64,000 nucleotides of DNA from the NCBI RefSeq assembly GCF_001971585.1, contig NZ_CP019323.1:1540053-1604052 (forward strand), read 5' to 3'. Each line of letters begins with the position of its first letter. Position 1 is the stretch's first letter. The notes under the pieces are model-generated. The model did no database searches and was not told where the DNA came from. It saw only the letters and a program-made list of their open reading frames with translations. Shown here piece by piece: positions 9,711 to 50,717 of the stretch. The position numbers were made by a program, and so were the translations under genes. This DNA is from Companilactobacillus allii. GTDB lineage: Bacteria > Bacillota > Bacilli > Lactobacillales > Lactobacillaceae.

Positions 9711-9953
9711 CAAAACAAAAGAGGTCGCGGTTAACATTAGTAAATAAGGGAGTCACTGCATGGCGTTGAACTTATTGAAAGGGGAAATCGCCGAAGCGTC
9801 GGAATTGTAGGATCCGATGTGCTGGGACGTATCAATAATATGATATGGACTGTCGCAACAAAAAGTCGTTGCGGTGCGCTTATGACAATTACGATGCAGA
9901 ATATTTTGTAATTTTGGATCTCTTTGTTTTAAGCAAAGGGATCTTTTTTTATC
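9711..9953 (+). promoter_or_regulatory. Lysine riboswitch (L-box) with intrinsic terminator
   Basis: The leader carries the conserved L-box blocks in order: AGAGGTCGCGG, GAAAGGGGAAATCGCCGAAG, GCTGGG and GGACTGTCG. These resemble the B. subtilis lysC leader. The aptamer covers about 9715-9890. A terminator follows: GATCTCTTTG (9917-9926) pairs with CAAAGGGATC (9934-9943) before a T-run. When lysine is bound, transcription should stop before lysA. The riboswitch governs the lysA-asd operon and not the divergent lysC-dapF pair. Confidence 0.93.
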
Positions 9954-31070: not shown

Positions 31071-31178
31071 AACTACTCCTTGTTTTATAAAATTATATTA
31101 ATGTAGAAAACGGACATCGTCAATTCAATATTTTCATGAAAAAAATTTGTTTTGAATTAAATCTGTGTTAATCTATTA

Positions 31179-31252
31179 AGAGGTTCCTGATGGGATCCTT
31201 TTTTTATTTGCCGTAAAAGGAGAAGCCCTGTAACCGAAAGGTGGAAAAAAAT
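31179..31252 (+). promoter_or_regulatory. SAM-III (S_MK box) riboswitch of metK
   Basis: The leader has GGTTCC with GGGATCC and the conserved block TGTAACCGAAAGGTGGA just before the start codon, as in the enterococcal metK S_MK box. The ribosome site GGTGG (31240-31244) is part of the conserved block. In this class, bound SAM pairs the SD with the anti-SD and blocks translation. Confidence 0.88.
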
Positions 31253-32449
31253 ATGTCAAAGAATTACTTATTTACTTCTGAATCTGTTTCAGAAGGACAT
31301 CCAGATAAAGTCGCAGATCAAATTAGTGATGCGATTCTTGATGCCATTTTAGCTAAAGATAAAGATGCACGTGTTGCCTGCGAAACAACCGTTACTACTG
31401 GCTTAGTATTGGTTGTCGGTGAGATTTCAACATCGGCTTATGTTGATATTCAAAACGTTGTTCGTAATACTATCAAAGAAATCGGATATGATGGTACAAA
31501 TCCTGGTTTTGATGGTAATAGTTGTGCTGTTCTAGTTGCACTTGACGAACAATCACCTGATATTGCACAAGGTGTTGATGATGCGCTTGAAAAACGTGGA
31601 CAAGATAAAGATTATGATCCATTGGATCAAATCGGTGCTGGGGATCAAGGTTTTGTATTTGGTTTTGCTACAAACGAAACTAAAGAATACATGCCACTTC
31701 CCATTTCATTAGCTCATAAACTTATGCGTAAAACCGCAGAAGTTAGAAAGAACAAAACAATTGACTACTTGATGCCAGATGCAAAGTCACAAGTAACAGT
31801 TGAATACGATGAAAACGACAAGCCAATACGTGTTGATACGATTGTCTTAAGTACACAGCATAAAGCTGAAGCTACTCTAGAACAAGTACAAAAAGATATC
31901 AAAAAATACGTTATCGACGAAGTTGTGCCAAGTAATTTAATTGATGATAAGACTAAGTTTTTGATTAATCCAACTGGTCGCTTTGTTATTGGAGGACCTG
32001 AAGGTGATTCTGGTCTAACTGGTAGAAAAGTTATTGTTGATACTTATGGTGGATTTGCTCGCCATGGTGGTGGTGCATTTTCAGGTAAGGACGCAACTAA
32101 AGTTGATCGTTCTGCTAGTTATGCTGCAAGATATATCGCTAAGAATCTTGTTGCCGCTGGAATCGCTGAAAAGGTTGAAATCCAAATTGCTTATGCCATT
32201 GGTGTTGCAAGACCGGTTTCAATTCACGTAGATACATTTGGTACCAGTGATTATTCAGAAGAACAGATTGTTGAATGCATTGATAAGTATTTTGATTTAA
32301 GACCATTGGGTATTATTGAGATGCTTGATTTGCAAAGACCAATTTATAAACAAACAGCTGCATATGGCCATTTTGGACGTACAGATATTGAACTTCCATG
32401 GGAAGAACTTGATAAGGTTGATGACATCAAGAGCTTCTTCAAGGATTAG
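31253..32449 (+). CDS. metK: S-adenosylmethionine synthase
   Basis: MetK makes SAM from methionine and ATP. The 398-residue product has the hallmarks [17 protein letters not shown] near the N-terminus, [10 protein letters not shown] (about residue 118) and [17 protein letters not shown] (about 270). The ATG at 31253 is the true start; an in-frame GTG at 31241 lies inside the S_MK ribosome site. Translation is expected to be repressed by its own product through that riboswitch. A strong terminator follows. Confidence 0.97.
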
Positions 32450-34698: not shown

Positions 34699-35979
34699 AT
34701 GACAATTACACGTCGTCAGCGTATTCAAGAAGAAAATCGCTTAACTAGATTAAATAATAAAAGCGTTAAAAGTTCAAATATAAGCAAAAATGTTACATTT
34801 TTGGGTGGAAGCCTAGTTTTAGGCGGAGTGGTTACTTCACTTGCAAGTGTAGAAACTACTGTGCCAGTCTATGCTGAGGCTACATCTGCAATTAGTGCAA
34901 TTAGTGCAATTAGTGCAACTAATACAGTCGATACAAGTACTGATATTGTTACACCACGTGGTGTTGGCGATACAAACTTTATAAACTATATTGGTAATTC
35001 AGCACGCAAATTGGCCAATAACAATGATATCTATGCCTCAGTAATGATTGCACAAGCAATGGTTGAAAGTGGCTGGGGTACTAGTGGACTTGCTAGTGCA
35101 CCTAACTATAATTTATTTGGTATTAAGGGTTCGTACAATGGTGAGTCAGTTAATATGGGAACTCAAGAAGATGATGGTACTGGTAGTCTTTATTCGATCA
35201 GTTCTAATTTTAGGAAATACCCATCATACAAGGAATCTCTTGAAGACTATGTGTCTTTAATTAGAGGTGGAGTTTCAGGTAATCCTGAGATTTATGCTGG
35301 AGCTTGGAAGAGCAATACTACTTCTTATGAAGATGCTACAGCATATTTGACAGGCCGTTATGCTACTGACACTACTTATGCAGACAAATTGAATGCAATT
35401 ATCAAGAAATATGATTTAACTAAGTTTGATACAGCCGATGGTTCACAGGATCAAACTTATGTATATGCACAAGGTGACACACTACAGTCGGTCGCCGATA
35501 AGTTCAATATGACTGTTGAAACATTGATGGATCTTAATAATTTGAAGACATCTAGCTACGTGTATCCAGGTAAGACGTTAACAGTTCTTAAGGTTATTGG
35601 TAATGATAATCAAGAACAACCAGTCACTGTGAATAATTTGTCTAACGTTGTTGGAACAACTAGTTCAGATTCAGACACTACTTCAGATGTTTCGGATGTA
35701 TATGGTAAGAGTCAAGCACCAGTTATCGTTCAAGACGAAACAAACGGAGTTAAAAAATATGACTCTTCAAATAGTTCATCCAATGTTGCAGTTGCAGTTA
35801 AGAACACTTTAACATCAGATGATTCGAATAGTAACTCAAGTGATGATACTGTTACCGTTCAAGATGGTGACACGATTGATTCTATTGCTGCACAGGCAAA
35901 TACAACGACTGATCAGATAAAGCAAGACAATGATTTAAATTCTGATTTATTAGTTGTCGGACAGAAGTTAATGGTATAG
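34699..35979 (+). CDS. Secreted N-acetylglucosaminidase (GH73) with two LysM domains
   Basis: This cell-wall hydrolase has 426 residues. A long signal peptide (about residues 1-56, hydrophobic FLGGSLVLGGVVTSLASV, cut near VYAEA) is followed by an Ala-Ile-Ser linker with three 9-base repeats. The GH73 domain (about 95-240) has MIAQAMVESGWGTSG with the catalytic Glu and NYNLFGIKG. LysM 1 is about 251-297 (YVYAQGDTLQSVADKF), then a Ser/Asp-rich linker, and LysM 2 about 384-426 (VTVQDGDTIDSIAAQ). LysM domains bind peptidoglycan. It is likely an autolysin for cell separation. It is a single gene followed by the leuS leader. Confidence 0.93.
   Translation: MTITRRQRIQEENRLTRLNNKSVKSSNISKNVTFLGGSLVLGGVVTSLASVETTVPVYAEATSAISAISAISATNTVDTSTDIVTPRGVGDTNFINYIGNSARKLANNNDIYASVMIAQAMVESGWGTSGLASAPNYNLFGIKGSYNGESVNMGTQEDDGTGSLYSISSNFRKYPSYKESLEDYVSLIRGGVSGNPEIYAGAWKSNTTSYEDATAYLTGRYATDTTYADKLNAIIKKYDLTKFDTADGSQDQTYVYAQGDTLQSVADKFNMTVETLMDLNNLKTSSYVYPGKTLTVLKVIGNDNQEQPVTVNNLSNVVGTTSSDSDTTSDVSDVYGKSQAPVIVQDETNGVKKYDSSNSSSNVAVAVKNTLTSDDSNSNSSDDTVTVQDGDTIDSIAAQANTTTDQIKQDNDLNSDLLVVGQKLMV
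34888..34914 (+). repeat. Three tandem copies of a 9-base unit in the autolysin linker
   Basis: GCAATTAGT occurs three times in a row, coding Ala-Ile-Ser each time. The unit is a multiple of three, so copy-number change would keep the frame. Confidence 0.9.
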
Positions 35980-35989
35980 TATATAAAGC

Positions 35990-36226
35990 AACGGAAATAG
36001 TAAATTTAAAAAGAATTTCAGAAAGTACGTGGTTAATGTGAACGTATAACTTTTTAAATTGAACTCATCCATTTAATTTAACTGCTGAATTTAGTAGGTG
36101 GTTACGAATCGTCCGCGTTAAGGATTTTGAGAGTCACTTCTTTGTGGAGTGGAACTTAGGTGGTAACGCGATAATTCGTCCTATGATATCTTTAATTTAG
36201 ATATCATGGGACTTTTTTATTATCGT
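35990..36226 (+). promoter_or_regulatory. T-box riboswitch of leuS (leucine specifier)
   Basis: The 270-base leader has the T-box core AGGTGGTAACGCG at 36158-36170 and a terminator at 36177-36219 (TCCTATGATATCT with AGATATCATGGGA, then T-run). On the 3' side of stem I the bases GAACTCATCC offer CTC (36064-36066), a leucine codon, as specifier. Uncharged tRNA-Leu should stabilise the antiterminator. A CTC specifier would read tRNA-Leu(GAG); the tRNA-Leu gene seen in this window is CAG. Confidence 0.9.
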
Positions 36227-48863: not shown

Positions 48864-48912
48864 TTTCCAACAAAAAAGAGACCGATACGGTCTCTTTTTT
48901 TGTTGGAAATTA
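48861..48912. terminator. Long inverted repeat, bidirectional terminator
   Basis: Arms of 23 and 24 bases (48861-48883 and 48889-48912) pair with one bulged base around GATAC. The core is AAAAAAGAGACC/GGTCTCTTTTTTT. The TAA stop codons of the antiporter and of brnQ are the outermost bases of the two arms. Confidence 0.95.
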
Positions 48913-50298
48913 ATATTTTTGTGTAACTTCTTCGTTATTTGAAACGAATACTCCCATTTTACCAAGTACCATACCAAGGACAAAACCTAGTAAGGTAGGT
49001 GTTACCCAACCAAGTCCCATACTGGCGAATGGTAGGTATTGATGATAAACATTTAATACTGTTTTAACAAAGCCAGTCTGCAATACTGCAGGTGCGGCAT
49101 TAAACATATCAAGAACAGCAGGTAGTACTGTGAATGCAATAGTCATTTTATAAACGACACCTTTATATGACTTAGTATGAACGGTCAATGATGTTAAGAT
49201 CAAGGCAAGTGATAGTGGGTAAAGTAACATAAGTACTGGCAATGACCAACTGATGATTGTATCTAGTCCAGCGTTTGCAACTACAAATGAAACGAAACAT
49301 GTAACACGTAACCATCCTAGATAACTTACTTTAGGGAACAATTTGTGAAAGTCTTGTGCAAATGATGCAACCAATCCAAGAGCTGTTGTGAACACACCTA
49401 ATGTAACTAAGACACCAAGTAATGCAGCACCAAAGTTGCCGAAGTAATCACCAACGATACTTGATAGTGCATCGCCACCGTTTGCTGATAATTTCATTTT
49501 GTTCAAACTGAAGGCACCTAATAAAACTAATCCTAAGTAAACTAAAACCTCAAGTGAGATAGCCATGGTACCGGCTTTAGCAGTAACTGTAGAAAGTTCC
49601 TTATTCTTGTAACCTAATCCTTTGACAGCACGAACAAATGTAACGGATAAGGCAAGTAAAGCTACAGCATCGACTGTATTGTATCCTTCTAGTAAACCAC
49701 TAACAGTAGCGGTTGTTTGATAAGCGGTAGTAGGCATGTGATTTAAGCCACCCATAGGATTAACAAATGCGACTACAAAGATAACTGCTAATAATGCCAA
49801 GAAGATAGTATTTAAATATTTACCAACATATTTAACCAATCTATTTTGGTGAACACTCAAGACGTAAGCAAGACTGAAAAATACAGCTGTGAAGATCAAC
49901 ATACTAACTTGATTGTATTGTGCTGGTAGAAATGGTTTTGCGGCCATTTCAAAAGCCGTCGCTGCAGTACGTGGAGTACCAAAGAAAGGTCCAATGGTTA
50001 AATGAACTAAAACAAGAAATAATGCGGCATAACGTTTTCCAACTGGGCGGGCTAGATCATATAGACCGTCACTTTTTGTTACCACAACAGCTAGAATTGC
50101 TAGTAGTGGGAATAATGATCCAGAAATAGCAAATCCAATTGCGGCAGCAAACCAGTTGTTACCAGCCATTTGTCCCAAGTGAACTGGGAAAATTAAATTA
50201 CCTGATCCAAAGAACATCCCGAAGATAAGTGAGCTAACAACCAATAGTTGTAAGAATTTACTCTTGTTTGATTTTGATTCCAATAAATCGTTTTGCAT
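48910..50298 (-). CDS. brnQ: Branched-chain amino acid:cation symporter
   Basis: BrnQ (LIVCS family) takes up Leu, Ile and Val with sodium or protons. The 462-residue protein has about 12 helices and the family N-terminus FGMFFGSGNLIFPVHLGQMAG. The ATG at 50298 follows AGGGGGA at 6 bases. Two layers of control are visible upstream: an isoleucine T-box (50416-50660), and a 44-codon Ile-rich ORF that overlaps the start of brnQ by 41 bases in another frame. Confidence 0.95.
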   Translation of the reverse strand: MQNDLLESKSNKSKFLQLLVVSSLIFGMFFGSGNLIFPVHLGQMAGNNWFAAAIGFAISGSLFPLLAILAVVVTKSDGLYDLARPVGKRYAALFLVLVHLTIGPFFGTPRTAATAFEMAAKPFLPAQYNQVSMLIFTAVFFSLAYVLSVHQNRLVKYVGKYLNTIFLALLAVIFVVAFVNPMGGLNHMPTTAYQTTATVSGLLEGYNTVDAVALLALSVTFVRAVKGLGYKNKELSTVTAKAGTMAISLEVLVYLGLVLLGAFSLNKMKLSANGGDALSSIVGDYFGNFGAALLGVLVTLGVFTTALGLVASFAQDFHKLFPKVSYLGWLRVTCFVSFVVANAGLDTIISWSLPVLMLLYPLSLALILTSLTVHTKSYKGVVYKMTIAFTVLPAVLDMFNAAPAVLQTGFVKTVLNVYHQYLPFASMGLGWVTPTLLGFVLGMVLGKMGVFVSNNEEVTQKY

Positions 50299-50392
50299 AA
50301 GTGATCCCCCTAAATGAATCGTATAAATTTGTTTTTTTAAGTCTTATATTTATCTGACTAATCTGTATAATGCCACTAATATCAGAATCCAT
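50258..50392 (-). CDS. Ile-rich upstream ORF overlapping brnQ (candidate leader peptide)
   Basis: A 44-codon ORF begins at an ATG (50392-50390) with an excellent ribosome site (AAGGTGGTGA). It reads MDSDISGIIQISQINIRL at its start: six isoleucines in the first 16 residues, three of them from the rare codon ATA. It overlaps the first 41 bases of brnQ in the other frame and ends inside it. It lies between the T-box terminator and brnQ, so it is translated only when the T-box permits read-through. Ribosome movement over the Ile codons could modulate access to the brnQ start. It has no similarity to a known protein family that I recognise, and being expressed is an inference from the SD and start. 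Confidence 0.55.
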   Translation of the reverse strand: MDSDISGIIQISQINIRLKKTNLYDSFRGITYAKRFIGIKIKQE

Positions 50393-50415
50393 AATTCTCA
50401 CCACCTTAAATTTGA

Positions 50416-50660
50416 AAAAAAAGAGCCCTTCTCCCGATAGGGAAAAGGGCTCCAATAGTAGAACGGTACCACCTTTTTGAGTAGCTAAAAAACTACTCGC
50501 TTTAATCGCAAACTGATTAATTTGCTAGCCATATATTGGTGGCAACCACGATAACCTACATATCGGTATCGAGCTCAGAAATGATTTTCAAAATTCCCAT
50601 AACGACCACTTCCCATTAAACGTGGCTCACTGTGCGTAGTTGAGATTTCTACTTTTTTCT
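50416..50660 (-). promoter_or_regulatory. T-box riboswitch of brnQ (isoleucine specifier)
   Basis: On the minus strand the leader has the T-box core AAAGGTGGTACCG (50475-50463) and a strong terminator at 50452-50416 (GAGCCCTTTTCCC with GGGAGAAGGGCTC, then T-run). In the specifier loop GAAAATCATTTC offers ATC (50585-50583), an isoleucine codon. The antiterminator should form when tRNA-Ile is uncharged. Confidence 0.88.
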
Positions 50661-50688
50661 TCAACGCTTGTTTGATTTGTTGTTGCCA

Positions 50689-50717
50689 ATTATAAGCACG
50701 GAAAAAGTAAATTGCAA
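50689..50717 (-). promoter_or_regulatory. Promoter of the brnQ T-box transcript
   Basis: On the minus strand TTGCAA (50717-50712), 17 bp and TATAAT (50694-50689) form a near-consensus promoter directly upstream of the T-box. Confidence 0.8.

Follow-up and report, generated by a model that had tools for sequence, protein, structure and literature searches.

In the established T-box step, uncharged tRNA-Ile lets transcription pass the terminator. Transcription attenuators of the trp/his/ilv type carry codon-rich leader peptides, and in translational attenuation of the ermC type the ribosome site of the gene is sequestered and is opened by a ribosome that is stalled in the leader. ErmC-type attenuation is mentioned in the available text of PMC2965389, and for the ilv genes of S. 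aureus a leucine-rich attenuator peptide was reported, according to the title of the study (PMC5794164). In B. subtilis, transcription of rtpA (anti-TRAP) is under control of a Trp T-box and the complete translation of RtpLP, which contains three Trp codons, prevents translation of rtpA (PMC2311275). The tRNA-dependent ribosome stalling at rtpA was attributed to Chen and Yanofsky 2003, 2004 (PMC11255114), both statements being taken from the available portions of these papers. A sequence-only reading of the DNA analyzed here had claimed that no peptide-based step is known behind a T-box, which the portions just cited contradict, as rtpA has one (PMC2311275; PMC11255114). The available text of a study on T-box-controlled transporters (PMC2494555) and that of a paper on an L. 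lactis Met T-box (PMC7058034) mention neither a leader peptide nor an open reading frame. A literature search, whose coverage mostly leaves out subscription papers, returned no ORF behind a T-box except that of rtpA, and the cases described below for Ile, Tyr, Met and Val did not appear in it; peptide strings searched in the literature with a six-letter fragment gave noise only.

Organization of the brnQ locus

The window, i.e., the whole stretch of DNA analyzed, comprises 64,000 nucleotides of the Companilactobacillus allii genome. The brnQ region lies on the minus strand, in the order promoter-like site, T-box, terminator, leader Shine-Dalgarno sequence, leader ORF and brnQ, with the following features:

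50689..50717, minus strand: promoter-like site (TTGCAA, 17 nt, TATAAT) upstream of the T-box, 10/12 matches
50442..50673, minus strand: T-box leader of brnQ, Rfam RF00230, 91.7 bits, E 1.2e-20
50583..50585, minus strand: specifier codon AUC (Ile) of the T-box, GAA-N-NNN position, by eye against the alignment
50422..50453, minus strand: intrinsic terminator of the T-box, 14 pairs and a T-run
50398..50407, minus strand: Shine-Dalgarno sequence AAGGTGGTGA of the leader ORF, from the anti-SD duplex
50258..50392, minus strand: leader ORF of 44 codons and a stop, MDSDISGIIQISQINIRLKKTNLYDSFRGITYAKRFIGIKIKQE, ATG at 50392-50390, stop ending at 50258
50369..50392, minus strand: conserved core, codons 1-8, M[DE][ST]DI[ST]xI, from the comparison of relatives' leaders
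50306..50311, minus strand: brnQ Shine-Dalgarno sequence AGGGGG, inside the leader ORF
50258..50298, minus strand: out-of-frame overlap of 41 nt, the leader ORF frame reaching into brnQ
48910..50298, minus strand: brnQ, branched-chain amino acid carrier of 462 aa, TIGR00796 335 bits, PF05525 393 bits, ATG start at 50298

The covariance-model match of the T-box is full-length (positions 1-219 of 219) and scores 1.3 bits below the gathering score of 93. Promoter-like sites are not in excess in the brnQ region (3 versus 3.1 in shuffles). The sequence-only reading had described an Ile-specific T-box with its terminator, followed by a 44-codon ORF with a strong ribosome site, and both were recovered, the anti-SD duplex energy being -13.6 for the leader ORF compared with -11.2 for brnQ. 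Its further statements, that Ile makes up six of the first 16 residues, three times encoded by ATA, and that the ORF ends 41 nt inside brnQ in a different frame, proved to be accurate. The terminator scan of the leader returned a single terminator, that of the T-box; the interval from the leader ORF to brnQ showed none, so that any control exerted by the leader ORF would be translational. The possibility that ribosomes pass from the leader ORF into brnQ by programmed frameshifting was considered and rejected, the frame relation being +1 in Companilactobacillus and +1 or +2 in Enterococcus. Other leaders observed in the window are a leuS T-box, a lysine riboswitch and a SAM-III riboswitch (35977-36186, 9711-9889 and 31171-31255, respectively).

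Conservation of the leader ORF

In one scan of named genomes, 22 brnQ loci were fetched by BrnQ protein similarity and thus independently of the motif. The same ORF start and motif are found upstream of brnQ in 18 of these, namely in 15 Companilactobacillus loci and in Enterococcus durans, lactis and songbeiensis. The Ile leader word is absent upstream of brnQ in three of the 22 loci (L031, L033, L038), and in Enterococcus timonensis (L041) a different short ORF (MYPIMKCLQQRGKKC) was seen by eye behind the T-box; the module is therefore dispensable.

The conserved part of the leader is confined to codons 1-8 and the remainder is variable. In the 11 distinct cores of the motif-independent set (window included), 42% of the codon differences are synonymous in frame versus 8% and 1% in the other frames, and third positions hold 109 of the 161 base differences. 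Ile is present at codons 5 and 8 in all 11 cores, encoded by ATT at codon 8 in 11/11 and at codon 5 in 10/11. The sequence-only reading had asked for a conserved Ile-rich ORF with synonymous changes; the start, the ribosome site and Ile codons 5 and 8 are conserved in this manner, and the overall Ile density and the ATA codons are not. A wider set comprises 36 related Ile leaders, some of which were retrieved with patterns in which most residues of the core are fixed; in its 21 distinct cores Ile occupies codons 5 and 8 in 21/21 and 20/21, respectively, and Ser3 is encoded by TCT, TCA, TCC, AGT and AGC. The frame test on these 21 cores (0.46 versus 0.06 and 0.013) is biased, since the fetching patterns leave third positions free, and it was therefore repeated on the 11 cores fetched without the motif, as given above. 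Judged from these sequence comparisons, the brnQ leader ORF is under selection as a peptide and is no chance ORF.

The arrangement of the leader ORF relative to the gene is conserved as well. The leader ribosome site is stronger than that of the gene in 36/36 Ile leaders, and the frame is free of stops from codon 9 until past the gene start in 34/36 (0.35 expected from shuffles), or in 11 of 13 representative contexts when it is considered that the 36 rows are related. The two exceptions are L094 and L133, in which the leader ORF ends before the gene. In all 16 Companilactobacillus brnQ leaders tabulated (window included) the overlap is 41 nt. The start-to-start spacing of leader ORF and gene is 61-94 nt in 35/36 Ile leaders and 152 nt in L133. 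The distance from the terminator to the leader ORF is variable, with inserts at several loci, and as the start-to-start spacing keeps to this narrow range despite these inserts, ORF and gene behave as a unit. The inserts between brnQ T-box terminator and leader ORF in L021, L029, L030, L032 and L037 are repeat-like and of variable length.

Distribution of the Ile module across genes and taxa

Genome samples were drawn at three taxonomic levels and are not complete. With a strict pattern, 28 of 397 Lactobacillaceae genomes match, compared with 0/397 for the reversed pattern; three of the 28 matches are due to chance as judged by context (L090, L091, L100), the brnQ context of 17 Companilactobacillus matches was assigned by position and the other eight contexts were read. 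The matches precede brnQ, in Companilactobacillus and in one other genus, and genes for an HpaH-like hydratase, an MHS-type symporter and an OppA-like protein; the order sample adds Enterococcaceae brnQ and an Fe-ADH. A wider pattern matches in 33 of 395 Lactobacillales genomes, of which nine are real by context (the window's own, G013, G026, G092, G720, G678, G684, G532 and G531), L131 and the locus-less matches in G651, G469, G482 and G590 being left aside; the remaining matches inspected lie inside longer reading frames or do not have the right context. In the class sample, 5 of 398 Bacilli genomes match, which are the window's own and four chance matches by context, i.e., no real member outside the Lactobacillales was found in these 398 genomes, of which 359 lie outside the order. 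The genome of the window encodes a second, diverged Ile copy before the hydratase gene (MESNISEGQ..).

All upstream devices read for the Ile module are Ile-specific, being either an AUC T-box (by eye) or an attenuator peptide rich in Ile, the latter in two gene contexts. T-boxes were called upstream of the module in L007, L035, L036, L076, L092 and L096. In L094, L095, L098, L099 and L133 a separate leader peptide precedes the module, ending by eye in ..IIIIRIII, ..IIIIRIIS or ..AIIIRTRI. No T-box was found in L094 and L133, the two of these five attenuator loci that were scanned; a terminator was called in L094, and in L133 the scan called none and an imperfect one is seen by eye. Ile-rich attenuators before the MHS-type symporter apparently stand in for the T-box in lactobacilli. 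These attenuators, ..SNIIIIRIIS, ..SNIIIIRIII and ..ADIIIIRIII, were observed in L094, L095, L098 and L099 at approximately 1300-1370 of the oriented locus.

Leader ORFs behind T-boxes for other amino acids

The genome of the window contains 24 T-boxes, the specifiers of which were read by eye. An ATG ORF of at least eight codons with a ribosome site between terminator and gene is found at five of the 24, i.e., at brnQ (Ile), the hydratase gene (Ile), a second brnQ (GUA, Val), metQ (AUG, Met) and the gene of an NhaC-family transporter (UAC, Tyr). No ATG leader ORF is present at the 11 identified synthetase T-box genes (leuS, proS, valS, pheS, tyrS, serS, argS, alaS, glyQ, trpS and ileS), where the valS interval was judged by reading the sequence as the scripted gene start covered it. 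The ORF is also absent at seven further T-box genes, which are those of an ABC permease, hisZ, trpD, a metE-like gene, asnA, a second MetQ lipoprotein and an amino-acid permease. One gene of the 24, L139, has no family match and is presumably thrS. Thus, leaving this one gene without assignment, a leader ORF occurs at 5/12 identified non-synthetase T-box genes versus 0/11 synthetase genes; weak GTG/TTG frames at L006, L012, L013, L015 and L139 were set aside in this count. Separately, at the ABC amino-acid permease locus (L001, own genome C1:248134, plus strand) the T-box, whose specifier reads CAC by eye (His), is succeeded by another, incomplete T-box-like copy of antiterminator and terminator before the gene.

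These leader ORFs carry one word per amino acid, and each word contains the amino acid of its T-box (Ile, Tyr, Met or Val). The Tyr word T[CS]GGNPRY is found in nearly all cores, one core having Ala as second residue, and the stop codon usually follows directly. Thirty-five genomes match; of the 30 loci retrieved from them, 26 have the strict core, while the Tyr ORF is lost in L174, L176 and L201, and L173 reads TSGGTPLY. The Met word [YL]K[PS]PMW[YF]S is present in four leaders, its DNA recurring at one further site in G013, and the Val word SNGGL[VI]RV in six leaders, being lost in L208. A CGA codon (Tyr, Val) or a CCC codon (Met) stands directly before a cognate codon, and AAT, CGA and TAT are fixed in the Tyr cores. 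The in-frame synonymous share is 0.76 for Tyr and 0.80 for Val versus at most 0.03 out of frame, values that lean upward as the cutting patterns leave some third positions free; the three distinct Met cores are too few for a frame test. With strict patterns, which miss variants, the Tyr, Met and Val words were found only in Companilactobacillus, in two genomes each among 295, 181 and 181 sampled genomes, respectively. The Tyr (0/26) and Met (0/4) ORFs do not overlap the gene, and four of five Val ORFs counted do. T-box leader ORFs with cognate codons most likely act as translational second stages. In Companilactobacillus, repeat-like, hairpin-rich blocks were additionally noted after Met T-box terminators (L148, L151, L153, L154, L156, L160, L168-L171).

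Predicted accessibility of the gene's ribosome site

The energy needed to open the ribosome site of the gene was compared between the free leader and a leader with a ribosome that has the cognate codon in its A site, in a crude thermodynamic model at 37 °C with a fixed ribosome footprint of 32 nt. With the cognate codon in the A site, the predicted opening energy drops by at least 2 kcal/mol in 21/26 Tyr, 3/4 Met, 3/6 Val and 4/4 hydratase leaders. Among the other Ile leaders a drop of this size at Ile5 or Ile8 is seen in 1/32 only (L112, at Ile8), and in L030, L042 and L036 a ribosome at Ile5 raises the opening energy. For brnQ of the window no hidden ribosome site is predicted; an ermC-type sequestration is not supported here, the site being already accessible in the free leader (2.4; z -0.1 versus shuffles) and barely changed by stalls at Ile5 (1.8) or Ile8 (2.5). 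Hence, a hairpin actuator would not be used by brnQ.

In the hydratase profile the predicted energy is 4.2 when codon 4 occupies the A site, reaches its minimum of 2.0 at Ile5 and rises to 3.9 one codon and 7.4 two codons later. The Tyr profile is broad, with a mean of 6.4 seven codons before Tyr, 3.8 six codons before, 1.5 at Tyr and at most 1.6 after it. The site is also opened by a ribosome at the stop codon and, less strongly, by one up to six codons before Tyr, so that a Tyr stall would lengthen the open state rather than be its sole cause; five Tyr leaders do not fit the hairpin-opening pattern. Shuffle tests covered 15/36 Ile, 13/26 Tyr, four Val and four Met leaders and gave sequestration z values of 3.5 and 4.0 for the hydratase and means of 1.7 for Tyr (n=13), 1.2 for Val and 0.8 for Met. 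One brnQ of another genus has a sequestration z of 4.1 and its site is not opened by Ile stalls. The Tyr consensus fold (RNAalifold, 26 leaders) contains a local hairpin of five pairs only and shows neither covariation nor compensatory changes. Within this model, two actuators would fit the data, which are occlusion for leader ORFs that overlap the gene and a hairpin for those that do not.

Proposed mechanism and alternative explanations

The leader ORF is probably translated into a conserved leader peptide, which would add a check of Ile at the level of translation behind the T-box, with translation, stalling, occlusion and the physiological effect being inferred from the arrangement described above. 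In a first step, uncharged tRNA-Ile would allow readthrough of the brnQ T-box terminator. Ribosomes would then bind at the site of the leader, the stronger of the two, before that of brnQ. If Ile is plentiful, they would pass codons 5 and 8 and sweep across the ribosome site and the start of brnQ, as the frame is open 41 nt into brnQ, and initiation at brnQ would be low. If Ile-tRNA is short, they would stall at Ile codon 5 or 8, leaving 46-55 nt between the edge of the ribosome and the brnQ ribosome site, which would be free. Both steps would respond to one signal with one sign. For brnQ, occlusion is favored over an RNA-fold switch because no fold switch is predicted, the leader site is the stronger one and the frame is open across the gene start, a geometry that permits blocking of the gene start by completed leader translation. 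Occlusion cannot hold in the same form for L094 and L133, whose leaders stop before the gene, and the 41-nt overlap could instead follow from a conserved N terminus of BrnQ. For the hydratase leaders and most Tyr leaders, a hairpin is predicted that holds the ribosome site of the gene and would open with a ribosome at the cognate codon. The two-stage sensor that the sequence-only reading had put forward thereby gains from the conserved start, ribosome site and Ile codons and from the cognate ORFs at Tyr, Met and Val T-boxes; a version of it based on an RNA-fold switch is not predicted at brnQ.

A plain codon counter leaves the conserved non-Ile residues unexplained. These residues are conserved across five gene types, Ser is kept with both TCN and AGY codons, and each of the Tyr, Met and Val classes shows a fixed word with CGA or CCC just before a cognate codon, all of which would suit a nascent-peptide sensor, in which M[DE][ST]DI[ST]xI itself helps to arrest the ribosome and the stall needs the peptide together with Ile and not just an empty A site. 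We regard this as rather unlikely, as only 4-7 residues would be made at an Ile stall, which is short for contacts in the tunnel, slow codon pairs would also explain the fixed neighbors, and the conservation is partly built in by the search patterns. The accessible brnQ ribosome site and the strong site of the leader ORF would also be expected if the ORF were a plain helper that stabilizes or clears the mRNA or tunes basal brnQ translation and does not sense Ile. This is improbable, since it explains neither the peptide-level conservation of codons 1-8, nor the association with Ile-controlled genes, nor why the words for Tyr, Met and Val include the amino acid of their T-box.

Some positions are fixed beyond coding need, such as ATT rather than ATC in the Ile word and AAT, CGA and TAT in the Tyr word, as might be the case in a DNA or RNA element, i.e., a regulator or RNA-protein site, that is an open frame by coincidence; the in-frame synonymous share (0.42 versus 0.08 and 0.01) largely contradicts such an element, and Ser is encoded by two unrelated codon sets, making it very improbable. 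Short frames do occur in AT-rich leaders, as illustrated by the weak GTG/TTG frames at L012, L015 and L139 and also at L006 and L013; nevertheless, a chance ORF is already refuted by conservation across Lactobacillaceae and Enterococcaceae and by the reversed-pattern control of zero. Returning to the translational Ile check, a more general form of it can be put forward tentatively, and we consider it somewhat doubtful as a whole: the leader ORFs may belong to a portable, amino-acid-specific leader-peptide module of the Lactobacillales, with an Ile word placed before unrelated genes and behind two unrelated sensors and with sister words for Tyr, Met and Val. Fixed neighbors of the cognate codon, CGA and CCC among them, might then confer hypersensitivity to the charging of one tRNA, and uptake would be gated twice by one signal.

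Comparison with known systems

In comparison with transcription attenuators of the trp/his/ilv type, the leader shares a short ORF with cognate codons and differs in that brnQ has no terminator between leader ORF and gene; the attenuator peptides in L094, L095, L098, L099 and L133, which are of this type, lie upstream of the Ile module and are distinct from it. With S. aureus ilv the leader would have in common a peptide-based control of branched-chain amino acid genes in Firmicutes, the peptide there being Leu-rich and acting on biosynthesis genes, as the title of that paper indicates (PMC5794164). The Tyr and hydratase leaders would resemble the ermC type, as the ribosome site of the gene is predicted to be sequestered and to be opened by a ribosome in the leader. 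In contrast to ermC, the signal would be tRNA charging and not a drug, and brnQ is not predicted to work in this way.

As in rtpA, the brnQ leader has an ORF with its own ribosome site between terminator and gene and conserved codons for the amino acid of the T-box. In both, the T-box would act on transcription and a short ORF with cognate codons on translation, so that one tRNA signal would be read twice. The cases described here differ from rtpA in the amino acids (Ile, Tyr, Met and Val), in the genes, which are mostly transporters, in the bacteria and in the peptides, which are unrelated and have fixed non-cognate residues. Furthermore, nearly all Ile ORFs run into the gene, those for Tyr and Met stop short of it and mostly have a predicted hairpin, and the Ile module also follows attenuators other than T-boxes.

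As far as found, the double reading of one tRNA, at transcription and then at translation, was previously described for one operon (rtpA). Here it would be a repeated design, mostly of genes for amino-acid uptake, with one peptide word per amino acid and perhaps two actuators. The occurrence of leader ORFs at 5/12 non-synthetase versus 0/11 synthetase T-box genes makes the worth of a second gate testable, and several short leaders are offered for the study of tRNA-specific ribosome stalling. The principle is known from rtpA, and the Ile, Tyr, Met and Val cases would be a new form and a large extension of it.
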